A stretch of DNA of 64,000 nt from positions 1 to 64,000 of IMG/VR virus record IMGVR_UViG_3300035698_001735, one strand, 5' to 3'. This document shows, piece by piece, positions 1-41,698 of the stretch. The first letter of the stretch is position 1. Each line of letters begins with the position of its first letter. Origin of the DNA: a virus. The position numbers and the translations under genes are program-made. The notes under the pieces were generated by a model, which was not told where the DNA came from, did not search any database, and saw only the letters and a program-made list of their open reading frames with translations.

Positions 1-212
1 CATTGGCACCTGTGTCCGCAAACATCTCATGTGTGTATAAATGACGAGCAGCTTCGACCTTAGTCATGGGCTCGTCTAGCTCAATAAGACGAATCTCACT
101 GTGCTCGTTCTTCGATAAAATCTTGACACGCGCCGCCAAGTCATTTGCAAAGCGTACTTTAACTACGCCGTTTAAAGTTGACACGCCAGTTACTGTAAAT
201 GTTTTAGTACTC
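1..212 (-). CDS. Unknown small protein, C-terminus cut by window edge
   Basis: An open frame starts at the ATG at 212 and runs leftwards off the window, so only the first 70 residues are visible (beginning MSTKTFTVTG). The visible part is charged, with no membrane segment, and I do not recognise the family. A sigma70-type promoter of the conserved early class lies at 254-282. It is the last gene of the leftward block and is separated from the next gene by a 1.3-kb gene-poor stretch. Confidence 0.65.
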
Positions 213-253
213 ATAATCGTCTACCTTTTAAGTGTGTGTGTAAGTGTTAAGTA

Positions 254-282
254 AGTATAGAGTCTTCAAATAGTAAATGCAA
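254..282 (-). promoter_or_regulatory. Early sigma70-type promoter, conserved extended class
   Basis: Read on the minus strand: TTGCAT, 17 bp, TATACT, with TGAAGAC just upstream of the -10 and TTAACACTTACACA downstream. Four more promoters (6591, 7215, 9262, 9866) share these extensions. It drives the partial gene at 1-212. Confidence 0.75.
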
Positions 283-326
283 CAATTATTTAAAAACTTT
301 TTAAGCGTTGCCAACTCTGTGTCGTG

Positions 327-480
327 CAACATGTCAACTATTGTAGTGTCACCAACAAATAATAGCAACACCTCATTTGACTGTTTAATTAAATATCAAT
401 TAAACAAAGTTGCAACCTCTCTGTAACAACATGTCAACTATAGTAATGTCATCAAACAATAATAGCAACACCTCATTTGA
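327..480. repeat. Two 54-bp direct repeats, 100 bp apart
   Basis: The segments 327-380 and 427-480 both begin CAACATGTCAACTAT and end AATAGCAACACCTCATTTGA, with a handful of differences between them. The start-to-start distance is exactly 100 bp. No convincing coding frame covers them. They sit beside the ACTATAGT array, so this may be part of a replication or recombination region. Confidence 0.75.
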
Positions 481-539
481 ACAACAAAAATAAACTACTT
501 ATATAAGCAACACAAAAAAACGCTGGTAGGTAGGTTACT

Positions 540-1440
540 ACTATACAACACACTATAAGTCAATGATAGATATAACCATGTAACACTATAGTAAGAAGAA
601 GAGTATGATACACTATAGTAAGAGGTATGAATGACACTATAGTACAAGGTATGAATGACACTATAGAGTATACACAACTGAGTTAAGCATTGAACACTCA
701 CGATTGTATCCTGAACTGTATCCTGAACTGTATTCAGTAGTGATCGAAGCAAATGATAACTCTAGAACACAATAACGAAGCATATGATGCTGCCGTTGAG
801 CTGTTTTGAAGCATAATGAGCTGAACAGGCCGTTCAATTAACCGCAACTTACTACACCGCACTAAGCATGATCGATACTATAGGCAATCTAAAAATTATT
901 GGAGATGGTTCGAAGTTGGCTAAGCTCAAATACTTTTCGGTTCTCTGAACATGCTTTCACTCTTCTGAACATGCCTTTCACTCTTCTGACGTTGTTCTAC
1001 TGTAGGGTTACTATGATCTACTATAGTGTTGTGGTGACTACTATAGTGTATCATACCTCTTACTATAGTACTGAGTTGTTCTACTATAGTGTGTAATGAA
1101 CCTCTTACTATAGTGTGTAATGAACCTCTTACTATAGTGTTATCACCGGCTACTGACTACATGCTTATAGTGCATACACGGGCTAGTGAACTCTTGGTTC
1201 TGCTTGCGTATAGTGTGTCTTACGCACTGTATAAGCTGCGGTTGTTGTTATGCTTGCTAGCGTATAGCGTTAATGTGTTGCTGTTGTTGTGTGCTGTTGT
1301 GTGCGCGTATAGTGCTATGTCGTGCAGCGGGGTCTTGTGTATAGTGTTAAGCACTATAGTAGTTAAAGAGTAAAACGACTGCTGTTATGTATAGTGAAGT
1401 ATAAACAATGTATCGTACTATAGTAACAACAAAGAAATAA
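540..1440. repeat. Array of ACTATAGT palindromes in inverted halves
   Basis: Eleven perfect copies of the self-complementary 8-mer ACTATAGT start at 585, 612, 636, 1020, 1040, 1062, 1083, 1107, 1131, 1353 and 1417, with near copies at 660 and 878. Left-hand copies are followed by AAGAGGTATGA; right-hand copies are preceded by the complement (TCATACCTCTT), so the two halves form a large imperfect inverted repeat around 680-1010. Frames through this stretch are repetitive and unconvincing. The rest of 213-1589 shows nothing else definable. Possible origin or protein-binding array (inference). Confidence 0.8.
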
Positions 1441-1577
1441 GTGGCGATGTCTACATCAATATTGCAATCTCTTTTGAGTCTTTTTTGTCTATTAAGCGCT
1501 TGTTGGTAGGTGAAGTGGCAGCAGAGAAACATGATTACGCATGAAGATATGATGATGACGAATTCAGTTAGTAGCAT
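1347..1577 (-). CDS. Possible small two-segment membrane protein
   Basis: A 76-residue frame with an N-terminal hydrophobic segment (about residues 3-22), a short basic loop (RQKRLKR) and a second hydrophobic segment near the C-terminus. There is no clear ribosome binding site upstream of the ATG at 1577 and the frame overlaps two ACTATAGT palindromes, so it may be chance. I give it only because the hydrophobicity pattern is coherent and its direction matches its neighbours. Confidence 0.3.
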   Translation of the reverse strand: MLLTEFVIIISSCVIMFLCCHFTYQQALNRQKRLKRDCNIDVDIATYFFVVTIVRYIVYTSLYITAVVLLFNYYSA

Positions 1578-1589
1578 AGCAGCGGGATC

Positions 1590-1874
1590 TTAGGCAGTAG
1601 TGTTGACAGTAGTGTTGACAGTAGTTGTTAATCGATTGACAAAGTTAATTGGTATCGCACCTAACAATAATATAGTAATATCTCGGTCAATATCAACTAT
1701 TATACTTGGGTTATAATATCTGCCGTTTATCTTTATTACTCGTGTAGTGAGTTCGTTGTTGTCTTGACGCGTGCATAAAATTATGTAAGCATACGGGTGC
1801 CTTATGGGGGACTTGCTGATAACTACAGGGTTACGCCATGCTTTATTAATGTATATAAAAGTATCTGATATCAT
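1590..1874 (-). CDS. Tandem paralog family member (copy 1)
   Basis: 94 residues. It belongs to a family repeated along 1590-4869. Members begin with a short strand-like motif (here FIYINKAW followed by PV) and end with a conserved block, here DITILLLGAIP then NF and RL. The middle is variable. The C-terminal tail LTTTVNTTVNTTA comes from a short 12-bp tandem repeat at 1597-1622, so the end of this copy seems to have been extended by slippage. The stop of the broken copy next upstream lies 2 bp before this ATG. Family function unknown. Confidence 0.7.
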   Translation of the reverse strand: MISDTFIYINKAWRNPVVISKSPIRHPYAYIILCTRQDNNELTTRVIKINGRYYNPSIIVDIDRDITILLLGAIPINFVNRLTTTVNTTVNTTA

Positions 1875-1875
1875 G

Positions 1876-2167
1876 CTACGGCCTATTACGGTTGGTTAGT
1901 TGATCAAGTAAGCCACAAGGTATTGCTCCGAGTTTGAGCATGGTTAGTTGTTGTTCACTACGTCAACAAACCGCGGCATTATACTCAAACACTCAGAGTG
2001 TTTGGTGCGATATAAAAAGACACCACCGTCAACAACTGTTAATATAATAAGAGCATTACTGTACTTTGCATAATTGGAGATAAGGGATTATACATAGTTG
2101 TTACAACAGGCTTGCGCCACTTAGGGTTAATGTATATTATATAGCTTTCATTATCTTCTGGTTTCAT
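1876..2167 (-). pseudogene. Frameshifted tandem paralog (copy 2)
   Basis: The ATG at 2167 opens a frame starting MKPEDNESYIIYINPKWRKP, a clear family N-terminus, but it stops after 42 codons. The family C-terminus (LTMLKLGAIPCGLLDQL) is intact further on in a different frame, and the middle lies in the third frame. Two shifts are therefore needed to rebuild it. It keeps the gene spacing of the array, which suggests recent decay rather than chance similarity. Confidence 0.8.
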
Positions 2168-2193
2168 ACGTCGTCCTAGTGATAGTTGTATAG

Positions 2194-2475
2194 CTATTGG
2201 TTAGTTAAGTAATCAATTAAGCCCGGGGGTATTGCTCCGAGACTCAAGATAGTTAACTCGTTGGGCTGAATGTAGAGGTATTCTGGCATAGAGTGCGCGA
2301 CATTTATTGGATCAATGTTGCTGTGTAGATTGCGCATGATCTGATACTTATTGTCTCCGATCTCCATTAGTATAGCTGTTGCAAGAAAGTACATGGAGTA
2401 ATTTGGTCTACGGGTGGGTCCAAAGACTAAAACTGGCGTAGTCCAATTAGTGTTTATGTATATACTAGTTTTCAT
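2194..2475 (-). CDS. Tandem paralog family member (copy 3)
   Basis: 93 residues, N-terminal SIYINTNWTTPV and C-terminal ELTILSLGAIPPGLIDYL. The C-terminal block is closest to that of the broken copy at 1876-2167, suggesting these two arose by a local duplication. No membrane segment or signal peptide. Separated by 13 bp from the upstream copy, so co-transcribed with it. Confidence 0.8.
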   Translation of the reverse strand: MKTSIYINTNWTTPVLVFGPTRRPNYSMYFLATAILMEIGDNKYQIMRNLHSNIDPINVAHSMPEYLYIQPNELTILSLGAIPPGLIDYLTNQ

Positions 2476-2488
2476 GTAGCTCCTTTGC

Positions 2489-2758
2489 TCAACAGTTGGG
2501 GTAATACCACAAATCGGTTCTGAGTCGCTGCATAAAGTTCTTTGGCAGCCCTCCTAACATTAATATAGTAATGTCCTCGGGATTTACTTCTATTTCCGGT
2601 GGATGTAATTTAGCGCGATGGTTGCATCTTATTACGACAACCTTATCACAAGCAGTTATTCGCAGTACAGTTTCGGCCTCTCTTGCATGCTGATATGATA
2701 TAGGTATAAATTTTACAGGCCGGTTCCAGCTTGTGTTAATGTATAATCGTACATTCAT
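2489..2758 (-). CDS. Tandem paralog family member (copy 4)
   Basis: 89 residues, N-terminal RLYINTSWNRPV and C-terminal DITILMLGGLPKNFMQRL. It overlaps the stop of the next upstream copy by 4 bp (ATGA-type overlap), a sign of translational coupling. The middle (about residues 20-60) shares almost nothing with its neighbours, so the family evolves mainly in its centre. Confidence 0.82.
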   Translation of the reverse strand: MNVRLYINTSWNRPVKFIPISYQHAREAETVLRITACDKVVVIRCNHRAKLHPPEIEVNPEDITILMLGGLPKNFMQRLRTDLWYYPNC

Positions 2759-3021
2759 ACGTTTGCTGATCCCATTCTGTCTATAAAGCCTTTGGGTAAT
2801 CCTCCTAAAAGTAGCACGGTTAAATCACGCTCCTCGATCCGTAACGGAATACGACTATCCATGTAATTTTGATATTTGTTAATGTGAGTTTCTGCAATGC
2901 CGTTTGAATACACTATGATAAGGACAGTTGCGTCTTTGGCTTTGGGTAAGAACCAAACCCAGTCCCGGATAACCTCGACAGGCCTATCCCAGTCTGGATT
3001 GACATAGATGTGTGTAAACAT
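2755..3021 (-). CDS. Tandem paralog family member (copy 5)
   Basis: 88 residues, N-terminal HIYVNPDWDRPV and C-terminal DLTVLLLGGLPKGFIDRM. It is the first gene behind its own sigma70-type promoter (3051-3079), so copies 1-5 form one leftward operon, separated by a terminator from the upstream copies. Confidence 0.82.
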   Translation of the reverse strand: MFTHIYVNPDWDRPVEVIRDWVWFLPKAKDATVLIIVYSNGIAETHINKYQNYMDSRIPLRIEERDLTVLLLGGLPKGFIDRMGSANV

Positions 3022-3050
3022 TTAAGTCCTTAATTTCTTGTGTATGCTGT

Positions 3051-3079
3051 ATATTAGCTTCTTATGCAAGTAAAGTCAA
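3051..3079 (-). promoter_or_regulatory. Sigma70-type promoter for paralog copies 1-5
   Basis: On the minus strand: TTGACT, 17 bp, TAATAT, placed about 30 bp before the ATG at 3021. Confidence 0.6.
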
Positions 3080-3084
3080 GAGGT

Positions 3085-3124
3085 AAAAAAGCACCCAAGT
3101 ACCTAATATAATACGGGTGCTTTA
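3085..3124 (-). terminator. Intrinsic terminator
   Basis: Stem of AAAGCACCC paired with GGGTGCTTT around an 18-nt loop, followed on the minus strand by a run of T. It lies just after the stop of the 3148-3540 gene and just before the next promoter. Confidence 0.75.
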
Positions 3125-3147
3125 TAGAAATAGCCAGAGGGTAGTTA

Positions 3148-3540
3148 CTAAACTAGGGTACCCTGGGTTTGTGTTATGGCGTCTGCGTATATAGCAAGGA
3201 TTAGCATCTCTTGACTTTCGGTACCCTCGACGTTATCAGACACAGGAGTATGGTCTTTTTCTCCGTACCCATTCCATACGTACAATATCGAGTTGTCTCT
3301 ATTCTCAACGTGTGCTCGTTTCATATCTGGGTGTTTATTTATTACGTCCGCAAACACATCTGCATCGTCGTCGGCAAGCTCTTGCGTGTGTCGGCTATTA
3401 ATTAGTTTTTTAGCTAGCTGAAGTGATTCAGGGCCAAACCGTTTTTCGCTAACCTCGCCCCATGTTTGTTCGCTCATTATGTATGCGCTGACCGGGTATG
3501 CTTGTGTCTCAGTCATTAGCGTGTTGTATATGGATGTCAT
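3148..3540 (-). CDS. Unknown 130-residue protein inside the paralog array
   Basis: A soluble acidic protein with no signal peptide or membrane segment and no motif I recognise. It does not carry the paralog-family end blocks although it lies between copies 5 and 6. It has a good ribosome binding site (AAGGAG, 7 bp before the ATG), a possible late promoter GATAAATA at 3564-3571 and a terminator directly after its stop. It might therefore be expressed at a different time from the surrounding array (inference). Confidence 0.75.
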   Translation of the reverse strand: MTSIYNTLMTETQAYPVSAYIMSEQTWGEVSEKRFGPESLQLAKKLINSRHTQELADDDADVFADVINKHPDMKRAHVENRDNSILYVWNGYGEKDHTPVSDNVEGTESQEMLILAIYADAITQTQGTLV

Positions 3541-3563
3541 AGATGCTCCTTAAATAGTTTATC

Positions 3564-3571
3564 TATTTATC
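3564..3571 (-). promoter_or_regulatory. Possible T4-type late promoter
   Basis: GATAAATA on the minus strand, 24 bp before the ATG at 3540, matching seven of eight bases of the T4 late consensus TATAAATA. It is one of few such sites pointing leftwards. Confidence 0.4.
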
Positions 3572-3577
3572 ATAGTC

Positions 3578-3877
3578 TTAGTAGCTGAGTAATTGTTTAT
3601 GTAGATTAGCTGATACTGACCCTAGCATTAGTAAGGTGATGTCTGGTTGACTAAGCTGTATTACTCCGGTTCCTTTATGCTGGGCTGCGGACAGTCCGGA
3701 GGAATGTATATTATAATGCAAGTAGCAGTTAGCTTCGGTGTTTATTGATATTATAAATTCTGTATTTCTAAAAGCGCTTGAGTTTTCATAGCCCCGATAT
3801 CGTTGTTTTCGGTTACAAGAACGCTCGATCGTAACATACGGCGTATGCTTTGAATTAATATAAAACCAACTAGTCAT
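3578..3877 (-). CDS. Tandem paralog family member (copy 6)
   Basis: 99 residues, N-terminal WFYINSKHTPYV and C-terminal DITLLMLGSVSANLHKQL. The C-terminal block departs from the usual LGGLP to LGSVS, making it one of the more divergent members. Its ATG overlaps the stop of copy 7 by 4 bp. Confidence 0.8.
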   Translation of the reverse strand: MTSWFYINSKHTPYVTIERSCNRKQRYRGYENSSAFRNTEFIISINTEANCYLHYNIHSSGLSAAQHKGTGVIQLSQPDITLLMLGSVSANLHKQLLSY

Positions 3878-4182
3878 GTTACCGCCTCGTGTTTTAATTT
3901 GCTGATGTCTTTTAAGAAGTTCTTTGGTAGTCCCCCTAATAACATCATGGTAAGGTCGCGTTGTTCTAGTTTGAATGACCCTATGAACGCCAGCTCGCCC
4001 GAGACATTATACACTATTTTCGCATTGCGAATTAGCACATCTATTTCTATTACGTAGACAGCACCTCTGAAACACTTACTGGTTACAAAGGCAAACCGGT
4101 TATTTTCATTGTATAATCTACGATCGAATTGTACCTTAGTAGCGGAGCTTGGATTAATGTATAAGTATGTTTTCAAGGACAT
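3874..4182 (-). CDS. Tandem paralog family member (copy 7)
   Basis: 102 residues, N-terminal YLYINPSSATKV and C-terminal DLTMMLLGGLPKNFLKDI. It overlaps copy 8 by 10 bp and copy 6 by 4 bp, so copies 6-9 look translationally coupled. Confidence 0.82.
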   Translation of the reverse strand: MSLKTYLYINPSSATKVQFDRRLYNENNRFAFVTSKCFRGAVYVIEIDVLIRNAKIVYNVSGELAFIGSFKLEQRDLTMMLLGGLPKNFLKDISKLKHEAVT

Positions 4183-4454
4183 CGGAGTTGCTTCTTTAGG
4201 TTAGGTGTTAGGCCTCCTAATAATAACATAGTTTTATCCTTAGAGTCAAGTTCTAATAGGCCCATCTCGTTAGTAAATCTATTTTTATGTACGTAGCTAG
4301 CCCCGGCATCTCGACGGATTGATATTAATACATCTGCGCGGGTGTAACGTCTAAGGTGCGAAACTTCTATTGTGTTCACGGAATCAATAATAGTAACCTT
4401 TTTATCATCAGAAAGTCTAATGTAAACCCACAGCCGGTTAGTTTCAGGAAACAT
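4173..4454 (-). CDS. Tandem paralog family member (copy 8)
   Basis: 93 residues, N-terminal WVYIRLSDDKKV and C-terminal DKTMLLLGGLTPNLKKQL. The YIN motif has become YIR. It starts inside the last codons of copy 9 (11-bp overlap). Confidence 0.8.
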   Translation of the reverse strand: MFPETNRLWVYIRLSDDKKVTIIDSVNTIEVSHLRRYTRADVLISIRRDAGASYVHKNRFTNEMGLLELDSKDKTMLLLGGLTPNLKKQLRCP

Positions 4455-4869
4455 AATACGGGTTTAGCATAATAGGTGTATTGCGGATGCGAGGTATTAA
4501 CGCAGGCGGTATTGCTCCGAGGCGAAGCATAGTTATTTCTTTAGGGTTAACCTCAATACCTCCTATTGCGCCATTGCTTCTATTCTTGTGCAGATATGCA
4601 ATATTGTTTTCGTCGATTGATAATACATAGTCAGAATGCAGCATTGTTTTGTATGGGCTAAATCCATTCAAAGTGCGTCTTGAAATGTCTTCTGGAAACC
4701 TTCGAGGGTCTGACACCATCAATGTACCTTTGGCGGTAACGATCTTAGTGCGCATAATAAAGAACCAAGTGCAGTTGACGTAACTCGGCTCTCTATCTAA
4801 CTTTTTACTACGGAGAATGCCAAGGCGGACCAACGCCTGCCTTATGCTAAATTTCTTGTTGTTATCCAC
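4444..4869 (-). CDS. Tandem paralog family member (copy 9), N-terminally extended
   Basis: 141 residues, about 45 longer than the other copies. The extra N-terminal part is basic (SIRQALVRLGILRSKKLD); the family-like part follows (WFFIMRTK near residue 36) and the C-terminal block is EITMLRLGAIPPALIPRI. It is the most upstream copy and could be the founder or a fusion. Function unknown. Confidence 0.78.
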   Translation of the reverse strand: MDNNKKFSIRQALVRLGILRSKKLDREPSYVNCTWFFIMRTKIVTAKGTLMVSDPRRFPEDISRRTLNGFSPYKTMLHSDYVLSIDENNIAYLHKNRSNGAIGGIEVNPKEITMLRLGAIPPALIPRIRNTPIMLNPYYVS

Positions 4870-4887
4870 TTAAGTTCTCGCTTAGTG

Positions 4888-5382
4888 TTATGCTAATCTG
4901 TTTATTGCCAATAGAAGGTTGCTGTACTTTTCCTCCAAACTACTGTACAGTTTATTGTTTTGAATTAACTCTTCTAGATTATAAATTTCACCGCCGTGGC
5001 TAACAACAGTCCCGCCTTTGCCACTGCCAAAATCATCTTCTTTGCACGTTCTCTTCATAGGCAATGGACCTTGCCCTTGGTGAAAAATATTTCTCGCCGG
5101 CCAGTTAGCCCTGTGGTCGTTAATTTCAAAGCAGTTCCTGCCTCGGATGCCTGTTATGACACCTAATATACTTATGGTGTGAGTCTGGTTGTTGTAGGAG
5201 TACACATCGTCACCTATGTCAAAGTCAGACGCACTATTATTTTCTTCGTATGCTGGCCCTTTACCTTCGTGGAACACAACGGATTCATTCCAGTTATAAA
5301 GCTCACCCGCTCGATCCGCAACTCCTATGTTAGCAGCTCCTCCGAGAGTACTGTGTTGGATGCTACCTACTATGCCGGCCAT
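4888..5382 (-). CDS. Unknown 164-residue protein
   Basis: The start is uncertain: an ATG at 5382 is used here, a GTG at 5388 is in frame, and the open frame extends further with no standard start codon or clear ribosome binding site. The protein carries two similar stretches (VVFHEGKGPAYEEN near residue 35 and IFHQGQGPLPMKR near residue 100), suggesting an internal repeat, each followed by a conserved D/DDF motif. The middle (DDVYSYNNQTHTISILGVITGI) resembles a small beta-barrel fold. Function unknown. Confidence 0.65.
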   Translation of the reverse strand: MAGIVGSIQHSTLGGAANIGVADRAGELYNWNESVVFHEGKGPAYEENNSASDFDIGDDVYSYNNQTHTISILGVITGIRGRNCFEINDHRANWPARNIFHQGQGPLPMKRTCKEDDFGSGKGGTVVSHGGEIYNLEELIQNNKLYSSLEEKYSNLLLAINRLA

Positions 5383-5443
5383 GCGCACGGAGAGGTTTGT
5401 CGGAGACCAAACATATACTGTTGGTCTTCTAAGAATAATTTAG

Positions 5444-5761
5444 TTATACTGTCTGCTCTTCTAGTAAGTGAGTTGCTCTAGCTTGTATTTTTATAAGAGA
5501 AGCTGCGGCGTAGGCTGGATCGTTATGCGATACACTAAATTCAAAGTTGCCGCCGAATCGTCGCAGCAATTCATCTCTTGGGCCACAGAACTGAATTAGC
5601 AAGCTCTCGTCAAGATGCCCGCATGCGCAAGTGACCCAGCGTCCTGCTTCTTGTTTGTCCACTAAAGTAAAGTGCCCGCGTGCCTCGGCATCAATTAACC
5701 TTTCGCCCCAGTACGTGCGATTTAACTTTGCTTCGGTGAGTGTTTCTTTAACTGGTTTCAT
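5444..5761 (-). CDS. Cys-containing small protein, paralog of 5787-6125
   Basis: 105 residues from the ATG at 5761, chosen because AGGAG lies 7 bp upstream and because the N-terminus then aligns with the neighbour (KETLTEAKLN versus TETLTQAGLD). Both proteins share YWG/HWG, an EARGHF/EQRGQF segment and the motif WVTCACGxLDxSL, where the C-x-C pair could hold a metal. The upstream ATG at 5800 would overlap the neighbour. Unknown function; a local duplication is clear. Confidence 0.78.
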   Translation of the reverse strand: MKPVKETLTEAKLNRTYWGERLIDAEARGHFTLVDKQEAGRWVTCACGHLDESLLIQFCGPRDELLRRFGGNFEFSVSHNDPAYAAASLIKIQARATHLLEEQTV

Positions 5762-5786
5762 ATTGCTACTCCTGACTATAGTTGTT

Positions 5787-6125
5787 TTATCGCTCTGCAT
5801 TTGCTAACAGTAACTCAGTAGCACGCTTTTCTATTAATACTAATTGAGTAGCTGCTTTGCGTATATTATTAAATCTAACTAGGTCCTCGAACTTTTCACC
5901 TAGCTGACGCAGTTTACTGTCAATCGGGCCGGGCTCGCCGTTGTTTGCATTGCGTTTGCCCATTAAACTTGCGTCGAGCTTACCACACGCGCAAGTAACC
6001 CAGAAGCTTGCTTCGTCTTCGTCGATATCAGTAAACTGCCCGCGTTGCTCGGCAATCAAAATGCGCCGTCCCCAGTGGCTATTATCTAGGCCTGCCTGGG
6101 TGAGTGTTTCTGTAGCTGTACTCAT
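5787..6125 (-). CDS. Cys-containing small protein, paralog of 5444-5761
   Basis: 112 residues with ribosome binding site GGAGA before the ATG. It shares with the downstream gene the N-terminal ETLT..L....WG block and the central WVTCACGKLDASL motif, and ends in a helical segment. The family resembles small phage proteins of unknown role that contain a CxC-type motif. It is followed after 25 bp by its paralog. Confidence 0.78.
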   Translation of the reverse strand: MSTATETLTQAGLDNSHWGRRILIAEQRGQFTDIDEDEASFWVTCACGKLDASLMGKRNANNGEPGPIDSKLRQLGEKFEDLVRFNNIRKAATQLVLIEKRATELLLANAER

Positions 6126-6146
6126 ATAATTTTCTCCGTTAGCTGA

Positions 6147-6557
6147 TTATAGTTTATAGGTTATGGGTAATATGTAGCCAGCGCCGCGTAAGATATTAGA
6201 AGATTTTGTCTTAAGATTTCGAAAAACTGGAACAAATCCTGTTGCTAGTTCATATGCTCGGTTAGCCGTTGCGTTCTTAATTGAGTAAGGTACTTGACTA
6301 TAAGCATACTTTGCATCCCGGGCTCCGTCTAAATAATTAGTACATGCTCCGGCGTGCAGTGCTTGGTTGATTTTGTTAAGCACTGGCAACATTGCTGCTG
6401 GGCTAGTTTTTTTGTCCATAACTTTTAATAGAGGTGTTACTTTACTAAGGCAGCGTTCGGCATTGTTCATCCAAGCAGTATAACTGTCTATGTAAGGATT
6501 TGCTGCGGCAAAGCTAGCGGCTAAGGTTAACGATAATGCTAGAATAATCTTTTTCAT
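6147..6557 (-). CDS. Exported protein of unknown function
   Basis: 136 residues with a classic signal peptide: MKK, a hydrophobic core of about 14 residues and AAAN/ASFAAAN as a likely signal peptidase I site near residue 19. The mature part has two Cys (near 38 and 72) that could form a disulphide in the periplasm. It has a conserved early-class promoter at 6591-6619 of its own. No recognised domain. Confidence 0.8.
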   Translation of the reverse strand: MKKIILALSLTLAASFAAANPYIDSYTAWMNNAERCLSKVTPLLKVMDKKTSPAAMLPVLNKINQALHAGACTNYLDGARDAKYAYSQVPYSIKNATANRAYELATGFVPVFRNLKTKSSNILRGAGYILPITYKL

Positions 6558-6590
6558 AATAGTATCTCTGTTTGTGTGTAAGTGTTAACA

Positions 6591-6619
6591 AGTATACTGT
6601 CTTCAGTTAAGCAATGCAA
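6591..6619 (-). promoter_or_regulatory. Early sigma70-type promoter, conserved extended class
   Basis: Minus strand: TTGCAT, 17 bp ending TGAAGACAG, TATACT, then TGTTAACACTTACACA. It serves the exported-protein gene at 6147-6557. Confidence 0.78.
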
Positions 6620-6627
6620 CTATTACA

Positions 6628-6903
6628 TTAGGGTTTGCGTCTTTCAATATATTGTTTTATGGTAAGGGCGTTATTTTCTTTAAGAAAAGCCTTCTCTAAC
6701 ATTTTTAATTGGTGATTATTTTTAATCTTACCGCCGGAGTTCCAATACCAAGCGTCGTAGGCTCTGGTTATCATCACAACCTCAGTTTTTTTCCAAAACC
6801 AATACCCTGTAGTAACAATCACTCTCGCTTTGTAAGGGGGTCTGTAACAGGGTCTGCCACGATATACCACCATGGGCATCAGCATGAAATTACTTATTTT
6901 CAT
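6628..6903 (-). CDS. Unknown basic 91-residue protein
   Basis: Small basic protein rich in Tyr and Arg in its first third, with TTGYWFWKKTEVV in the middle and a helical C-terminal end. Its ATG overlaps the stop of the upstream gene (ATGA), so the two are translationally coupled. No known domain recognised. Confidence 0.65.
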   Translation of the reverse strand: MKISNFMLMPMVVYRGRPCYRPPYKARVIVTTGYWFWKKTEVVMITRAYDAWYWNSGGKIKNNHQLKMLEKAFLKENNALTIKQYIERRKP

Positions 6904-7181
6904 TCTTCAAGCGCTTTGGTTAGTTCTGCTGTTTCTTTTGTTGGTAATCCAAGTGCTTCGGCACGTGCCTTGGCTTCTGCTAAGTCGACCCTAACGTCTG
7001 CAAACATCATACCAGACGAGTAGTCTCCGTCTGAACCAAAGCGCGATATAACAGTTGGGTTGCCATTCTGGTCGCAATGATAAAGGTCTTTGTTTTCGTA
7101 ATTGCCTAAGAATGTGCAATTAGTGCAATCGTGCTCGTGTATCGGAGCGTCGTGCTCGAACCCTATTAAATCATGTAACAT
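6900..7181 (-). CDS. Small putative metal-binding protein
   Basis: 93 residues. The first 35 contain EHDAPIHEHDCTNCTFLGNY and DLYHCDQ, i.e. several His plus a CxxC and a further Cys, a pattern typical of small phage zinc-binding proteins. The C-terminal third is an Ala/Glu-rich helix. A conserved early-class promoter lies at 7215-7243. Exact family not recognised. Confidence 0.75.
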   Translation of the reverse strand: MLHDLIGFEHDAPIHEHDCTNCTFLGNYENKDLYHCDQNGNPTVISRFGSDGDYSSGMMFADVRVDLAEAKARAEALGLPTKETAELTKALEE

Positions 7182-7214
7182 AGCTTGCCCTCTGTGTATT
7201 GTGTAAGTGTTAAC

Positions 7215-7243
7215 AGTATACTGTCTCCAAAGACATAATGCAA
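7215..7243 (-). promoter_or_regulatory. Early sigma70-type promoter, conserved extended class
   Basis: Minus strand: TTGCAT, 17 bp ending TGGAGACAG, TATACT, then GTTAACACTTACACAAT. It serves 6900-7181 and the coupled gene after it. Confidence 0.78.
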
Positions 7244-7277
7244 CTATTACATTAGGGCTTGCAGTTTTCTCTGCATG

Positions 7278-7628
7278 TTACTTATTCTTTTTCCAAAGCT
7301 TAAACTGAGAAGCTAGCCACCATGGGTCTAATCCCCAAAGTCTTATTACGTCGCCTTTGACTGCAACTACGCGATAAATTACGTTTTTGAGTATCACATC
7401 GTCGCCGATCTTAAAGCCACACATGCTGTCTGTGCTTTGGTCATCAATTATCTTTGTTAGTCTGTCATTAATAACAGCTAGGCATCTTCTATGATGCTCG
7501 AAACGCTTAAGCCGACTTCTAAATTTTCTTTCACGCAACACTGCGAGAAAGATACCTAACGCTATGGCTGCCCCCGTCCCTATTACTAAAAGTAGTATCT
7601 CTAAAATTTGGTTTACGGGTGCTAACAT
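7278..7628 (-). CDS. Membrane-anchored protein of unknown function
   Basis: 116 residues: one N-terminal membrane segment (about residues 9-30), then a strongly basic stretch (RERKFRSRLKRFEHHRR), a helical linker and a C-terminal region (FKIGDDVILKNVIYRVVAVKGDVI) that reads as a small SH3-like beta barrel. Its ATG overlaps the stop of the next upstream gene by 1 bp. Confidence 0.72.
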   Translation of the reverse strand: MLAPVNQILEILLLVIGTGAAIALGIFLAVLRERKFRSRLKRFEHHRRCLAVINDRLTKIIDDQSTDSMCGFKIGDDVILKNVIYRVVAVKGDVIRLWGLDPWWLASQFKLWKKNK

Positions 7629-8008
7629 TATAGCTTGCCCGCCTCTATGTCAGTTTCTATTCCTATTGCTAGTGTCCGTAACGCGTTAACTAATACCTCA
7701 GGCTCTCCGCTACGCAGCTCGCAGAAATGCCGCCAATCGTTATCCCAGCCCACGGCAATGCCATAATGATTACCCTCGCCGTCGACTCTACTTTTGACTT
7801 CGATACTTTTAAACCTTACTACCGGCATTTCCTTTATGTCTGTTATTTTAAAATCCTCTAGACCTTGCATCGCCGCTTCGTCCTGGATGTACTCCCTAGC
7901 CTCTTCTTCGCTTTCGGCGTGCGTGTATCGTTCGCCTGTGGTTGTGCACCAGGGTGAATCCATAGTAGCTCTGGTATACTGTATAGTTGCACGGTATCTG
8001 TTTATCAT
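7628..8008 (-). CDS. Unknown 126-residue soluble protein
   Basis: A mixed alpha/beta protein without signal peptide or membrane segment; no motif recognised. It is followed with a 1-bp overlap by the membrane-anchored gene, so the products may work together (inference from coupling only). Confidence 0.68.
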   Translation of the reverse strand: MINRYRATIQYTRATMDSPWCTTTGERYTHAESEEEAREYIQDEAAMQGLEDFKITDIKEMPVVRFKSIEVKSRVDGEGNHYGIAVGWDNDWRHFCELRSGEPEVLVNALRTLAIGIETDIEAGKL

Positions 8009-8015
8009 TGTTTTT

Positions 8016-8285
8016 CTATCCTTTAGTATAGCGTCGAATATTAAATTTATGTTTTAGCCTTTTCCATAGTCCGCGTTTTGTTTCGACTATGTTGGCGTTC
8101 ATTCTTTTCCACTCAACAGCTAACTTTGTGTAATCGTCGTACTCATTAAAGGTGTACTGGACTTCTACAACATTAAACATTATTGTCGGATTTCGCAAGT
8201 ATCTTCCGCTAGTACTCTTAAACAACTCTTCCCATGTATTAAACTTTTCTATTGGGATATACTCTACAATTTCCATCATTGACAT
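8016..8285 (-). CDS. Unknown 89-residue protein
   Basis: Small protein with a basic C-terminus (KRLKHKFNIRRYTKG). Starts MSMMEIVEY; the second or third Met could also be used. Lies in the same leftward run between close neighbours. No recognised domain. Confidence 0.6.
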   Translation of the reverse strand: MSMMEIVEYIPIEKFNTWEELFKSTSGRYLRNPTIMFNVVEVQYTFNEYDDYTKLAVEWKRMNANIVETKRGLWKRLKHKFNIRRYTKG

Positions 8286-8299
8286 CTCTTATGTTAATG

Positions 8300-8515
8300 C
8301 TATACTTGGTAACCTTCGGGATATACTGTTTCCTTAGGCTGATAGTCAGCTGGCGACTTTTGGTTGCAGGAAACACAAGTCATATTAGGTATTATATTAG
8401 CGTGATAAAATGCATCATCATACCCTGTGCCTTCAACTTCGTCGCCGCAGCTTTCGCACTGGTAGATTGCTCTAAAATCTCTGCGGTGTTGGCTTATTAT
8501 TTCTTTAATTTTCAT
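8300..8515 (-). CDS. Small zinc-ribbon protein
   Basis: 71 residues with two CxxC knuckles (CESCGDEVEG near residue 20 and CVSCNQKS near residue 49) spaced as in zinc-ribbon proteins. Likely a nucleic-acid or protein-binding accessory protein; specific role unknown. Confidence 0.72.
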   Translation of the reverse strand: MKIKEIISQHRRDFRAIYQCESCGDEVEGTGYDDAFYHANIIPNMTCVSCNQKSPADYQPKETVYPEGYQV

Positions 8516-8578
8516 ATATAATATACTCGAATTAGTTATTGATTGTATCTAGTATTACTGCCTGCTACTCTCCCATTC

Positions 8579-8800
8579 TCAAGTAGTCGGTTCTGCCGTA
8601 AAGTAAAGAGGCCCTTTACTAGACACAGGTCTTACCGTCATGTGCTTAAACCCCATTTCTTTCCCTAGGCGTTCCCAGGCAGAATTTGCGTTTTCTTGTG
8701 GCGAGCGCGGGCTGCCACAGTTAAGCGCTATCATAGGCACAGGCTTCATACTTTCCATGAGCGTGTCTAACTGAGCTTGTGTCATTTCAAATTCTTGCAT
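8579..8800 (-). CDS. Unknown 73-residue protein
   Basis: Soluble small protein with an N-terminal amphipathic helix (FEMTQAQLDTLMESMK) and a segment ALNCGSPRSPQENANSAWERLG also common in small phage ORFs. Good ribosome binding site (AGGAG) upstream. Function unknown. Confidence 0.7.
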   Translation of the reverse strand: MQEFEMTQAQLDTLMESMKPVPMIALNCGSPRSPQENANSAWERLGKEMGFKHMTVRPVSSKGPLYFTAEPTT

Positions 8801-8856
8801 AATATTCTCCTATAAGAAGTGTCACTTTAGGCAACACTTCGTTTTGATTACATAAG

Positions 8857-9228
8857 TTAATCAACAAAGTTGGCATTAGTGCAATGATTAACTGTGAGCT
8901 TAAACATTTTTCCGCCCTTAAGGCCTATGACCGGAAACCGTCGAGCCTTAGGGTTAAATCCTGCGATTTCAAACAGTTTTCCGTGAACTTTAAGCTTTCG
9001 GCCAAAGTCGCTTGCTTTAAGTCCAATGCTGCCGCAATGCTCGTTCCACGTAGCTTGCTCGGGGTTGTGTCCGTCAACTGATGCTTCAAGTTTAAATTTA
9101 ACAGTCTTGGATGTGAAACTTGCGTTATTAGCTGATATAGCTACACCGTGCTTTTGGCCAACGGCTACTAATGCCGCATTGATATCCGCACGTAGAACCG
9201 TTAATCCTGCTTTAGTAAACTGATCCAT
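8857..9228 (-). CDS. Phage conserved protein of unknown function
   Basis: 123 residues. The N-terminal region (LTVLRADINAALVAVGQKHGV) and the following KTVKFKLEASV are typical of a small protein family found in many tailed phages, for which I know no function. The C-terminal half reads as a small beta barrel (GRKLKVHGKLFEIAGF). It has its own conserved early-class promoter at 9262-9290. Confidence 0.75.
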   Translation of the reverse strand: MDQFTKAGLTVLRADINAALVAVGQKHGVAISANNASFTSKTVKFKLEASVDGHNPEQATWNEHCGSIGLKASDFGRKLKVHGKLFEIAGFNPKARRFPVIGLKGGKMFKLTVNHCTNANFVD

Positions 9229-9295: not shown

Positions 9296-9832
9296 TTAGA
9301 GGAGTCCTTGTTCGGCAAAGCTAGCATATTCGTCACCGGCAATGATGACGTGATCTATTACACTAACTTCAAACAAACGTAGTGCCTTGACAATAACCCT
9401 GGTAATATTTTTGTCTGCTTGGCTTATTATTGAGGAGCCGCTTGGGTGGTTGTGGGCTATGATCATAGCAGATGCATTTAGGTGTAATGCTTTTTTAGCA
9501 ATTTCTCTTGGATAAACAGTAGCAGCGTTTATAGTGCCTTTGAACATTTCGTCGTATTCGATAAGCTGATGTTGATTGTTTAAGAACATAACTGCGAACA
9601 CTTCGCGCTCTTTGCGCTGTAACTTCATGCGCAAATACTGCCGAGCAGCAGTACACGAATCAATTAATATTTCGTGCTTTTTTAACTTGGCATCAAGAAC
9701 AGCGATTGCACATTTAATAATTTGCTCTTCCATGCCCATCCAGTCAACGTCAGTTAAGTCAGTGTTGCTTGTTTGAGATTTAAGTGCTGTGAGGTATGTC
9801 GCTTCGGTTTCGCTGTTGATTGTGTTAGTCAT
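9296..9832 (-). CDS. radC: RadC-like JAB/MPN-domain protein
   Basis: 178 residues. The C-terminal 110 residues form a RadC-type MPN domain: the metal-binding JAMM signature appears as HNHPSG followed by an Asp eight residues on (about residues 127-140), preceded by the usual catalytic-type Glu (REVFAVMFL). Bacterial RadC is about 220 residues with an N-terminal helix-hairpin-helix; here that part is shortened or replaced. Bacterial RadC's biochemical role is unsettled; in mobile elements such proteins are common near anti-defence genes. It has its own conserved early promoter. Confidence 0.9.
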   Translation of the reverse strand: MTNTINSETEATYLTALKSQTSNTDLTDVDWMGMEEQIIKCAIAVLDAKLKKHEILIDSCTAARQYLRMKLQRKEREVFAVMFLNNQHQLIEYDEMFKGTINAATVYPREIAKKALHLNASAMIIAHNHPSGSSIISQADKNITRVIVKALRLFEVSVIDHVIIAGDEYASFAEQGLL

Positions 9833-9901: not shown

Positions 9902-10444
9902 TTAAGGGTTGCTTTTGAGGAGCTCTTCTATGATAGCATACTGTTCGTCGTCGTATGCAACTAGATTAACTTTATTAACTGCTTCGGTGTGCTTTAACTC
10001 TTCACGAACGGTGTTTACCATAATTCTAGCTGCTTTTTGTACATCAAATCCGTAAACCCCAGTAGAGATAGTCGGAAACGATATGCTTACTAGACCAAAT
10101 AGTTCTGCTACCCGTATGCTCGAAGCGTAAGCCATTGTAAGCAAGGCCTGTCGGACTTCGGAGCATTTATATACGCGGCAGTCTGGACCAACAGCGTGAA
10201 TAAGGTAATCACATATACGCAATTCCTGGAGGCCAAATGCCGGTGATAGCACTGCTCCGCCTGTGTGACATCCGTGGCTATAAAACCTGCTATTGTATTT
10301 GTCTAGTGGCTCGGTGCCGGCCTTAGCATATATAGCACCGCATACTCCCTCACCTCCAAATAGTCCTGGGTTAGCTGCGTTGACAATCGCATCGCACTTA
10401 ACTTCGGTGATGTCACCTTGTATTAATTTTATTACTGAAGCCAT
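9902..10444 (-). CDS. Macro-domain protein (ADP-ribose binding or hydrolysing)
   Basis: 180 residues covering a complete macro domain: GDITEVKCDAIVNAANPGLFGGEGVCGAIY (the first half of the ADP-ribose pocket, near residues 10-38) and FPTISTGVYGF (the second loop, near residues 124-134). The family binds ADP-ribose and many members hydrolyse O-acetyl-ADP-ribose, ADP-ribose-1''-phosphate or protein ADP-ribose. In a phage a role in reversing host ADP-ribosylation or in NAD salvage after NAD-depleting defence is plausible (inference). Own sigma70-type promoter at 10476-10504. Confidence 0.9.
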   Translation of the reverse strand: MASVIKLIQGDITEVKCDAIVNAANPGLFGGEGVCGAIYAKAGTEPLDKYNSRFYSHGCHTGGAVLSPAFGLQELRICDYLIHAVGPDCRVYKCSEVRQALLTMAYASSIRVAELFGLVSISFPTISTGVYGFDVQKAARIMVNTVREELKHTEAVNKVNLVAYDDEQYAIIEELLKSNP

Positions 10445-10511: not shown

Positions 10512-11591
10512 TTAGAATGCTTGATGCCAGTTATACGGATCTTGCTTAGGAACCTTGCTGAGTACAAGATTAAAATCCTTATTTTCATAAGTATACTTTG
10601 TTCCGGCTTTGTCAACACTTATAAGATTTGATTCAGTAAAGTACGAGCACAAATAGTCGTCCTCGTCGTCTTTGTCTTTTATAATAAAATCAAGATCAAA
10701 ATTGCAGTTGAACGGATTAAATCTTAGATCGTTTACGTTCGGCTGTAAATTAGCATCCGGGTGTAGCTGTTTAAAGCTAGCACTTGGTAATATTTTATCG
10801 ATAATAAACACTGAGGAATCTTCCGGCATACTAATATTTAGAATATCCATTGCTTGCTTAACAGGTTCGTTGTATCGATTCATTTCTTCTACTAATGACG
10901 CAAGCATATCAAAGTTAAACCTAGGAATAAATCTAGTTAAACTAATCACATCGTCTTTTTGCTTTTTGTCTACCAGGTTATCATCTAGGTATTCATTAAC
11001 GAACGCTTCGTCTAAGCTAGTAAATTGAATGCTGTAAAAAATACGCCCTGGACGATTGGTCATATAATAATTATTATCTACCTTGTTACTTGTTAGTAGA
11101 AATAACTTTCGACTTACAAACACACCATCTAGCAAGGTTAGCAATCCGTTTGCATCGTCGCGATCACGGTATACTTTTTCGTATTCGTCCATCAATATCA
11201 CACACGGATCAGATATGCTTTGTAAAAATACATTAAACTCGCTGCCGTGAAACGGAGCATTAATTAATATAATAGGCATATCGAGTCTTTCGCTGAGCTC
11301 AATTGCAGTAGTGCGAGCTAACAATGTTTTTCCTGAACCTTTTTCGCCGGCCATTAGTACGCCAGTGTTGCCTTTGCGACTTGCGAACGTGGTAATAATA
11401 CGCTCCATGTGAGACAGGGTATTGCCGTATATCTTACCTTTAAATTTCTCAAGATGATCTACCTCGACCAGAAAGAATCCCTTTTCGTCCACGTCAACTG
11501 TGTATGTTCCTGCCGGCAGCTTCTTTCGAATGTCAACTGCGGATTCGTCAGTGACTCGGTAAGTAGTGCCGTATTTGATATAATAGCTCAT
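10512..11591 (-). CDS. AAA+ ATPase
   Basis: 359 residues. After an 80-residue N-terminal part comes an AAA+ core: Walker A GEKGSGKT (near residue 82), Walker B VILMDEYEK (near residue 131), sensor 1 LLTSNK and an arginine-bearing NRPGRI segment. The layout resembles single-ring AAA+ remodellers of the BCS1/FtsH-like clade rather than helicases. The acidic stretch KDKDDEDDYLC lies near the C-terminus. Phage AAA+ proteins of this sort are common but uncharacterised. It is 1 bp from the Thg1-like gene and so co-transcribed with it. Confidence 0.85.
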   Translation of the reverse strand: MSYYIKYGTTYRVTDESAVDIRKKLPAGTYTVDVDEKGFFLVEVDHLEKFKGKIYGNTLSHMERIITTFASRKGNTGVLMAGEKGSGKTLLARTTAIELSERLDMPIILINAPFHGSEFNVFLQSISDPCVILMDEYEKVYRDRDDANGLLTLLDGVFVSRKLFLLTSNKVDNNYYMTNRPGRIFYSIQFTSLDEAFVNEYLDDNLVDKKQKDDVISLTRFIPRFNFDMLASLVEEMNRYNEPVKQAMDILNISMPEDSSVFIIDKILPSASFKQLHPDANLQPNVNDLRFNPFNCNFDLDFIIKDKDDEDDYLCSYFTESNLISVDKAGTKYTYENKDFNLVLSKVPKQDPYNWHQAF

Positions 11592-11592
11592 T

Positions 11593-12399
11593 TTATGTAA
11601 TTTCCGTAGGTTGGTGAATCATGTAGTTTTTCCCTTCAAATATAACTTCTTCTTTGTTTGTTATTGTGCTAAGTTTTGGCAGATAAAGTTCTTGGACAAC
11701 AGAACGTGTAATATGACCAGTCGGGCGATGAGCAATAGGTATGTGTGCTAGGTCAGTAACTGAACACTCAACGTCGCGCCGCTGTACGTATGTTCCGCGC
11801 TTCTTCCACGTTTCTAGATCGCTCCAGTTAATGCCTTTTCCTTGCCACAACTTCTCTTGCAGTTGGTTGCTCGAGAGATTTTGCAAGCTTGCGTGAGTAA
11901 AATATGTATGAGCTAGCATTGACACTGAATTCTTACTAGCATCAAACTCTCGCCACATAACTGCATTAACAGCTTCTGCGCGATTAGGCACATCAAACAC
12001 TCGACAGTCGAACACAGGCATGCTAGCTAGTGAGCCCGGCTTACTATTGCCAATTGACTGAGCAAATGATATAGTGGCAATGGATGCAAGTACTGAGTTT
12101 AGCTTGTGGACCTTTCCGTTAAAAAACGATTCTTGCCTAGGAGTTGTTCCGTCAAACACTAGCGTAATCTCGTCGCTTTGTGTGTAGCCAATCGAACACA
12201 TCGATTGTTTAACTAATTCTTTAGTAGCCGCAACCATTGCGCATTTCATATCTTCGTCAAATGGGCTTAAGAAGTCTTTGGTAAACTTTGAAAACGACCG
12301 CCCGTCTATTCTTGCTATAATCGGCAGCCCGGGCATTGTTTTTTGTTGCGTGTATCGTGCTTCGTATTCTTTCATACGATCACCTAGCTTGTCTTTCAT
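11593..12399 (-). CDS. thg1: Thg1-like 3'-5' RNA nucleotidyltransferase
   Basis: 268 residues, the usual size. It shows the Thg1 signatures: ARIDGRSFSKFTK (near residue 28; metal-binding Asp), a GYTQSDEITLVF segment (second metal Asp, near residue 71) and the SFAQSIG...FDCRVFDVP region. The family adds nucleotides to RNA 5' ends in the 3'-5' direction, as tRNA-His guanylyltransferase or as a tRNA 5'-end repair enzyme. I see no tRNA gene in this window, so host tRNA repair is the more likely role (inference). Directly followed by the AAA+ gene. Confidence 0.92.
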   Translation of the reverse strand: MKDKLGDRMKEYEARYTQQKTMPGLPIIARIDGRSFSKFTKDFLSPFDEDMKCAMVAATKELVKQSMCSIGYTQSDEITLVFDGTTPRQESFFNGKVHKLNSVLASIATISFAQSIGNSKPGSLASMPVFDCRVFDVPNRAEAVNAVMWREFDASKNSVSMLAHTYFTHASLQNLSSNQLQEKLWQGKGINWSDLETWKKRGTYVQRRDVECSVTDLAHIPIAHRPTGHITRSVVQELYLPKLSTITNKEEVIFEGKNYMIHQPTEIT

Positions 12400-12478: not shown

Positions 12479-13501
12479 TTACTGAAGGTAGTCGCCGTCG
12501 GCGTTAGTCCAATATTTGCATTCGTCGTAATAGTCGTTGTCCCATACAACTAATATAGAGCCATGGGTGTTATCTGTAATGTCAACGTCGCCGTCGCTAA
12601 TTGCTTGTCTAACAGATGCTCCGTCTAATCCTAATATCTCAGCAGCTCGCTTTACGTAAAGCAAATCGTCGTTTTTAGGACTACCTCGTGTTAGTATGTT
12701 TCGCCCGCCGGATTCCGTAAGCTGTCGCACTTCGCCTTGCTCAGTTGCTTTATCAGCAACTGACAAGTCAAAGGTGTGTGAGTTGTCAATATCTCTATTA
12801 AGCTCGCCTACGATCTCGTATTCGCATGCACGCCCCTTGGAGTTGTTATAGTCAGTTGGTATACTAACAACGTTAGCCGGATTGACCTTAACGATTACAG
12901 TGCGACCAGGGCCACCATAATTACCTAAGTATTCCTGCGAGCAAAAATGTAAACCTTCTGAGCAAGTGTCATTAGGATTTTCGTTAACGCGGTTTCTTGG
13001 CATTTTAACTATTGCGCCAATTGAATTGTCCATCTTGCCTGTATGGTGATCAGTGTAGTTTGATTTAACCATCTTGTACGCTAGGAAATGACCGTCTTCG
13101 GTGATAGGCAAGTCGGTTGCTTCAAGGAAGCCAAATAATTGATCAACTGCGCGTTTCGATGGATTGTCATCTAGGTTCTCAACAAACAAACACATAGGAT
13201 TAATATCAAACCCTTCGTCTGCCATACATAAAATGCGATTAGCAAGCGATCCGTGCATCTGTTCGTCATCTAGTGTAATAACACCGTCTTCTAATTTAAC
13301 GCGCGAACCTTCGACATTAAATTTCTTGGCGTAATGCTCCGTTAGATTAACTAACTCTTCTGCTGTTTCATAATCTTTATCGCGAATAGCAGCCCGTATT
13401 TTATCGTATTGTGAGTGTGACTCAGAAGTCACCACTTGTGTATCGCCATTGATAATCATGACGATAGAATCTGGTGTCACATTTGTAGCCTGAATGGTCA
13501 T
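12479..13501 (-). CDS. rIIB: rIIB-like protein
   Basis: 340 residues, resembling phage rIIB-like proteins: FGFLEATDLPITEDGHFLAYK (near residue 123), followed by DNSIG, a Cys/His-bearing CSEGLHFCS motif and a VVKVNPANVVSIPTDYN segment. The last 60 residues include an ILGLDGASVRQAISDGDVD helix-turn-helix-like segment. In T4, rIIA and rIIB are membrane-associated proteins needed to escape RexAB exclusion. The gene follows rIIA with a separate sigma70-type promoter (13538-13566). Confidence 0.88.
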   Translation of the reverse strand: MTIQATNVTPDSIVMIINGDTQVVTSESHSQYDKIRAAIRDKDYETAEELVNLTEHYAKKFNVEGSRVKLEDGVITLDDEQMHGSLANRILCMADEGFDINPMCLFVENLDDNPSKRAVDQLFGFLEATDLPITEDGHFLAYKMVKSNYTDHHTGKMDNSIGAIVKMPRNRVNENPNDTCSEGLHFCSQEYLGNYGGPGRTVIVKVNPANVVSIPTDYNNSKGRACEYEIVGELNRDIDNSHTFDLSVADKATEQGEVRQLTESGGRNILTRGSPKNDDLLYVKRAAEILGLDGASVRQAISDGDVDITDNTHGSILVVWDNDYYDECKYWTNADGDYLQ

Positions 13502-13537
13502 ATTTCTATCTCCGTTGCATTAATATTCTGTGTATGT

Positions 13538-13566
13538 AGTTTAACTTTTATTTAATGAGTTGTCAA
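13538..13566 (-). promoter_or_regulatory. Sigma70-type promoter for rIIB
   Basis: Minus strand: TTGACA, 17 bp, TAAACT, about 37 bp upstream of the rIIB ATG. Confidence 0.6.
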
Positions 13567-13594
13567 CTGGTATGTTGGATTATTATTGTTTATT

Positions 13595-13632
13595 GCTACT
13601 ACGCAGCACCGTTTTAAGTGCTGCGTAGTAGC
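13595..13632 (-). terminator. 15-bp perfect hairpin between rIIA and rIIB
   Basis: GCTACTACGCAGCAC and GTGCTGCGTAGTAGC pair perfectly around an 8-nt loop. It follows the rIIA stop by about 55 bp and precedes the rIIB promoter. There is no T-run, so termination, if any, would not be of the classical intrinsic type. Confidence 0.6.
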
Positions 13633-13685
13633 GTCTTAGACCGTGTGTAAGCGCAGAGCGCAGACAAGACATAGTAGTGTACTGC

Positions 13686-41642: not shown

Positions 41643-41669
41643 AAGTATGCCATGAAACTACTCTTTTCA

Positions 41670-41677
41670 CATAAATA
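41670..41677 (+). promoter_or_regulatory. T4-type late promoter for the HNH endonuclease
   Basis: CATAAATA, 21 bp before the HNH gene, giving it transcription independent of nrdA. AAGGAG precedes the ATG. Confidence 0.62.
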
Positions 41678-41698
41678 AACACATAGAAGGAGTAGTTC

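Follow-up and report, generated by a model that had tools for sequence, protein, structure and literature searches.

Paralogs are absent from most double-stranded DNA phage genomes, and the described families closest to the one considered here are the head protein families A and B of SPN3US and phiKZ, the SPN3US family B comprising 20 members (PMC5694885). Here we analyse a tandem array of small genes located at positions 1590–4869, on the minus strand, of a window that corresponds to the first 64 kb of a 116,740-bp virus record (IMG/VR); array positions are counted in this window. The record is that of an uncultured, tRNA-rich phage. What the array shares with families A and B is a large set of diverged, partly consecutively numbered paralogs carried by a single large phage; the copy number of the SPN3US/phiKZ families differs among phages. 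The latter are virion head proteins identified by mass spectrometry, family A having a size of about 45 kDa, whereas the products of the array are mostly about 10 kDa and are encoded in an early-type region, and no PHROG or Pfam match connects the array with the head families. The early proteins that serve host takeover or anti-defence in large lytic phages offer a second comparison: they are small, soluble and without known relatives. The array resembles them by the size and predicted solubility of its products, their orphan status, an early-type neighbourhood and a predicted host-type promoter that precedes some of its genes, but differs from them in being a single family, with eight to nine tandem members built on one scaffold. 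As a protein family the array is new and orphan; its arrangement is of a kind already known.

A tandem family of eight intact genes and one broken copy

The array consists of eight intact small open reading frames (ORFs; 88–141 codons) and one broken copy, hereafter g9 (first) to g1 (last), all on the minus strand. The first-pass annotation of this DNA had proposed a tandem family of this composition, which is borne out by the ORFs and by leave-one-out profiles: a profile built from seven copies recovers the remaining one in each case, with E values from 5.5e-10 to 2e-16 (Z = 500). Since these profiles find every copy, all copies share a common descent. Homology among all members, together with their head-to-tail order on the same strand, makes the array a tandem paralogous gene family. 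When run against the whole 116.7-kb record, the family profile matched exactly nine places and none besides; the 236 non-overlapping ORFs of this record include no other family of more than two members, pairs being the next largest.

None of the copies has a convincing match in Pfam, PHROGs, NCBIfam or PADLOC: the best E value is 0.01 (phrog_15085, g6 only), no Pfam or NCBIfam match has an E value below 0.03, and PADLOC returned none. The earlier statement that no known family is recognised thus stands, a profile match to such a family having been sought and found absent. The likeness to phrog_15085, whose match in phage MD18 is a T5orf172 (GIY-YIG-like) protein, lies in a YIN-like first strand in g6, whereas the other copies have no match; we rejected it as a homolog, as g6 alone matches it, over its full length but with E = 0.01, and as the profile–profile comparison of all copies with phrog_15085 gave a probability of 0.1%. 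With this probability and no Pfam match, the array does not qualify as a GIY-YIG/T5orf172 family. Sequence-profile matches in the PDB (CLIP-associating protein 2, E = 0.04; thymidylate kinases, E = 0.2) and in NCBIfam (E = 0.03 and weaker) concern one member each and were ascribed to chance.

Searches in genomes gave the same picture. A single-protein scan with g5 and tblastn of g5, g6 and g9 against phage genomes found no relative, and alignment-guided scans of IMG/VR and GTDB genomes with g4, g5 and g7 were empty. Pattern scans of IMG/VR retrieved 25 loci with the C-terminal motif and 10 with the N-terminal one, none of which contains a member of the family, and the family profile had no match in 32 related records (16 phage and 16 IMG/VR records, connected to this phage through its other genes). 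Similarly, no homology to known anti-defence inhibitors was found in the libraries searched, none of which is dedicated to anti-defence. These negative results are bounded by the collections searched, and the scans need exact short patterns, which diverged members could escape. Within these collections, the array is an orphan family, with no relation to described families detectable by sequence comparison.

The first gene, g9 (4444–4869; leave-one-out E = 5.6e-12), is also the longest: it starts with GTG and encodes a 141-residue protein with an isoelectric point (pI) of 10.2, which is extended by 24 residues at the N terminus and carries an insertion behind the YVN motif. It is followed by g8 (4173–4454, 93 residues, E = 9.5e-13), the start of which overlaps the end of g9, g7 (3874–4182, 102 residues, E = 2.5e-14), the start of which overlaps the end of g8, and g6 (3578–3877, 99 residues, E = 2.6e-10), which has a 4-nucleotide overlap with g7. 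Further on, g5 (2755–3021, 88 residues, E = 3.9e-12) overlaps by 4 nucleotides with g4 (2489–2758, 89 residues, E = 2e-16); then come g3 (2194–2475, 93 residues, E = 2.2e-12), which is preceded by its own Shine-Dalgarno-like sequence, AAAGGAGC, the broken copy g2 and finally g1 (1590–1874, 94 residues, E = 5.5e-10). Stop/start overlaps are found at these four junctions only (g9/g8, g8/g7, g7/g6 and g5/g4).

In g2 (about 1888–2167), the N block, the middle and the C block lie in three different frames. The C block is found by the family profile with an E value of 2.8e-5 in its own genome; taken piece by piece, the C-terminal part scores 24.0 bits, the N-terminal part 12.8 bits and the middle only 2.3 bits. 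Three family-like pieces in three frames imply that g2 suffered two frame changes; in this single assembly, decay cannot be told from a sequencing or assembly error.

Conserved ends, variable middle and predicted fold

Only four residues, Y6, T68, L72 and G73 (g5 numbering), are invariant in the eight intact copies. The N-terminal YIN/PV motif and the C-terminal (D/E)xTxLxLGxxP block, which had been described as kept in all copies, are therefore not strictly conserved: YIN becomes YIR in g8, the proline of PV is present in five of the eight copies, and the final proline of the C block is replaced by serine in g6 and by threonine in g8. The ends are nevertheless more conserved than the rest, with mean pairwise identities of 0.31 for the N block and 0.40 for the C block versus 0.15 for the middle. 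The latter had been said to have almost no identity; it is the least conserved part of the proteins, but it retains hydrophobic strand positions and an asparagine, N48, in seven of the eight copies (the exact count depends on the alignment), with a histidine two residues ahead of it in five copies (H-x-N).

The mean proportion of synonymous differences (pS) amounts to 0.81, 0.76 and 0.70 for the N block, the middle and the C block, respectively, i.e. it is saturated, and the corresponding proportions of nonsynonymous differences (pN) are 0.50, 0.61 and 0.40. Because synonymous sites are saturated, the ratio of nonsynonymous to synonymous substitution rates (dN/dS) is uninformative as to the arms race proposed by the first-pass annotation. 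The alignment indicates that the ends are under stronger constraint than the middle, and the higher pN of the middle would fit relaxed constraint and diversifying selection equally well.

Structure prediction was performed in two AlphaFold2 jobs that used the same eight aligned sequences in two orderings, with g5 and g8 as targets. The g5 model (predicted local distance difference test score, pLDDT, 80.6; predicted template modelling score, pTM, 0.72) and the g8 model (pLDDT 79.2; pTM 0.70) agree on the succession strand–strand–short helix–strand–strand–helix–helix, the N block forming the first hairpin and the C block the two helices; the g8 model has one more short strand, its fifth, and one more short helix. 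These models predict, provisionally given the eight aligned sequences, a soluble β-rich scaffold with two C-terminal helices. In line with solubility, no clear transmembrane segment was detected, the best 19-residue hydropathy being 1.64 (g1) and at most 1.19 in the other copies. A Foldseek search with the g5 model gave no match with E ≤ 0.001, the best E values being 0.91 in the PDB and 0.17 in BFVD (viral models). The BFVD matches to small T4-like phage proteins (nt-1 and EcS1; E = 0.17–0.3) are not significant, and the family profile has no match in the nt-1 record.

Expression of the array and its possible function

Coupled stops and starts had been taken to mean that all copies are expressed together. 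The overlaps do join g9-g8-g7-g6 on one side and g5-g4 on the other, but expression of the whole array as one block is not supported, the array being split by a predicted terminator and a predicted promoter. Between g6 and g5 lies a 130-codon ORF (3148–3540, minus strand) that is not a member of the family (family profile E = 58); its product is acidic (pI 4.6) and matches no Pfam or PHROG family above chance. This acidic orphan separates the two halves of the array and stands directly before the predicted intrinsic terminator (3088–3123, minus strand), a stem-loop of −15.9 kcal/mol (z = −3.2) followed by UUUUUU. A predicted sigma-70-type promoter, TTGACT-17-TAATAT, comes next (3051–3079, minus strand), in front of g5. 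Since the terminator and then the promoter separate the 130-codon ORF from g5, we predict that the array comprises at least two transcription units: (i) g9–g6 plus the 130-codon ORF, fed from upstream, and (ii) g5–g1, with g5 as first gene and a start of its own. A division of the family into two subfamilies mirroring these units is unsupported, the corresponding split ranking 5 out of 35. No known RNA element was found by Rfam in positions 1–9000.

The promoter matrix was trained on 25 consensus promoters of this phage genome. It gives the g5 site a score of 9.9, the next-best score on the minus strand in 1500–5600 being −2.0, and chance alone would give about 1.2 sites of that score on each strand of the 116.7-kb record. 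In the whole record the matrix finds, at the same score, 33 plus-strand sites versus 7 minus-strand sites, the −35 box being preceded by an A/T-rich stretch; therefore, the phage makes wide use of host-type promoters.

What could such a family do? The reading that we tentatively favour, as quite possible though short of probable, is that the array encodes small soluble proteins of an undescribed family, which would act as early cytoplasmic effectors of host takeover or counter-defence, with copy-specific targets. Repeated tandem duplication would have built the family on a shared scaffold composed of an N-terminal β-hairpin (YIN..PV), a central strand pair carrying N48 and a C-terminal helix pair (DxTxLxLGGLP block). 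The conserved ends may constitute a common core or a common docking surface and the variable middle may provide copy-specific contacts, each copy binding a different protein of the host or of a rival phage. Expression would occur in two blocks, the second behind the predicted host-type promoter, presumably early in infection. Through such a division of labour the array would spread cover over several targets, recombination adding or removing copies, possibly as seen with g2. A narrower version, in which the scaffold was copied eight to nine times to give target-specific inhibitors, the ends holding the fold, an exchangeable centre picking a host defence system or enzyme and copies coming and going as hosts change their defences, seems to us doubtful.

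Several observations speak for early effectors with different targets: (i) the orphan status of the family by sequence and fold, which is usual in host-specific early phage proteins; (ii) the combination of apparently soluble, homologous copies, the sole large family of the record, with an early-type neighbourhood; (iii) the putative sigma-70-type promoter at g5, in a genome that appears to use such promoters widely; (iv) a genome with many probable counter-defence functions (NAMPT with NadM/NUDIX, RNA ligase, CCA enzyme and 30 tRNAs); and (v) the same predicted topology in both AlphaFold2 jobs. Other observations weigh against it. The proximity of the array to early-type genes amounts to no more than guilt by association; no positive selection is apparent from dN/dS, which is saturated; no relative was found in other phages, so that orthologous variation cannot be compared; the g5 promoter is weaker than the best in the genome (9.9 versus 28–30); and all but two of the eight proteins are basic (pI 9.2–10.2), which would suit nucleic-acid binding too.

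The last point leads to a first alternative, which we regard as unlikely: a nucleic-acid-binding or transcription-modulating family that binds DNA, RNA or the host RNA polymerase and tunes the early-to-middle switch. The strong net charge of g9 (+10.9), the C-terminal helix pair that the models place after a small sheet and the two predicted units under separate control would be consistent with it. However, no ribbon-helix-helix, helix-turn-helix or other DNA-binding profile matches the copies in Pfam, PHROGs or NCBIfam, charge is not conserved (pI 6.0 for g3 and g5), and none of the invariant residues (Y, T, L and G) is basic.

A largely neutral or dosage-driven expansion, in which unequal recombination generated redundant copies with a relaxed middle, is somewhat harder still to credit. 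The broken copy g2, the stretches of 57–59 nucleotides over which copies show 74–75% DNA identity and the pN of the middle (0.61 versus 0.40–0.50 at the ends) with no sign of positive selection would be expected from such a process. Yet eight copies have remained open despite synonymous saturation, and Y6, T68, L72 and G73 have stayed invariant; the scaffold at least is therefore under purifying selection in all eight.

That the array encodes virion or injected head proteins, like the paralog families of giant phage heads, is improbable. Large phage paralog families have been described for heads (PMC5694885), and small basic proteins would suit internal proteins, but no structural gene is recognised nearby, the neighbours being early-type, the second unit is preceded by a predicted host-type promoter, and no PHROG head family matches. 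Lastly, superinfection-exclusion proteins at the cell envelope, a role raised by the first-pass annotation and for which the nearby rIIA/rIIB would speak, are highly improbable, given products with no clear transmembrane helix and with a predicted soluble globular fold.

If the copies are indeed effectors with different targets, they would make up a compact natural series with a single scaffold and eight specificities, so that the choice of target could be traced to the variable centre. Two sets of four or five copies could be addressed experimentally through the predicted terminator and promoter. Since the family is an orphan from one uncultured phage, its practical value hinges on finding a host or on expressing the copies.

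Genome surroundings

The array is located about 9 kb downstream of rIIA/rIIB, on the same strand. From the rII genes (rIIB and rIIA, 12479–15890) towards the array, the minus strand encodes Thg1 (11593–12399), an ATPase-like protein (10512–11591), a macro domain protein (9902–10444) and a RadC/JAB protein (9296–9832), supporting the view that the array sits in an early-type accessory arm of the phage. The other arm carries a split NrdA, NrdB, RNA ligase, a NadM-like adenylyltransferase/NUDIX protein, NAMPT, CCA enzyme and DNA ligase. In RcXuper and MD18, too, rIIA/B and the NAD genes are arranged divergently. The closest counterparts of the rIIA protein (about 35% identity) belong to Ruegeria, Rhodobacter and Phaeobacter phages of about 148 kb, and IMG/VR searches with the ATPase, rIIA and a 694-residue protein found no near relative of the phage.

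The NadM-like adenylyltransferase/NUDIX and NAMPT genes form a pair at record positions 72282–75609, which we take to resemble the pathways by which phages restore NAD+ against NAD-depleting defence. NrdA (40014–43692) is in two parts around a 302-codon ORF with a NUMOD3 motif (homing-endonuclease type), an intron-like or similar insertion. Thirty tRNA genes, at record positions 80219–95450, cover nearly all amino acids, no tRNA-Trp having been found; note that tRNA-His, Thg1 (11593–12399) and the CCA enzyme share one genome.

Two further features flank the array. Upstream of it, at a distance of 0.6 kb, lies a second tandem paralog pair (5444–6125, 118 and 112 residues) sharing a WVTCACGxLDxSLM-like motif and no clear family match. 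On its 3' side, 12 of the 16 copies of the palindrome ACTATAGT present in the whole 116.7-kb record are clustered within about 1 kb (437–1424), compared with 1.8 expected in the 64-kb window. They occupy apparently non-coding DNA, partly with a 24-bp spacing and in two inverted halves, and possibly constitute an origin, a binding-site array or a partition-like site.

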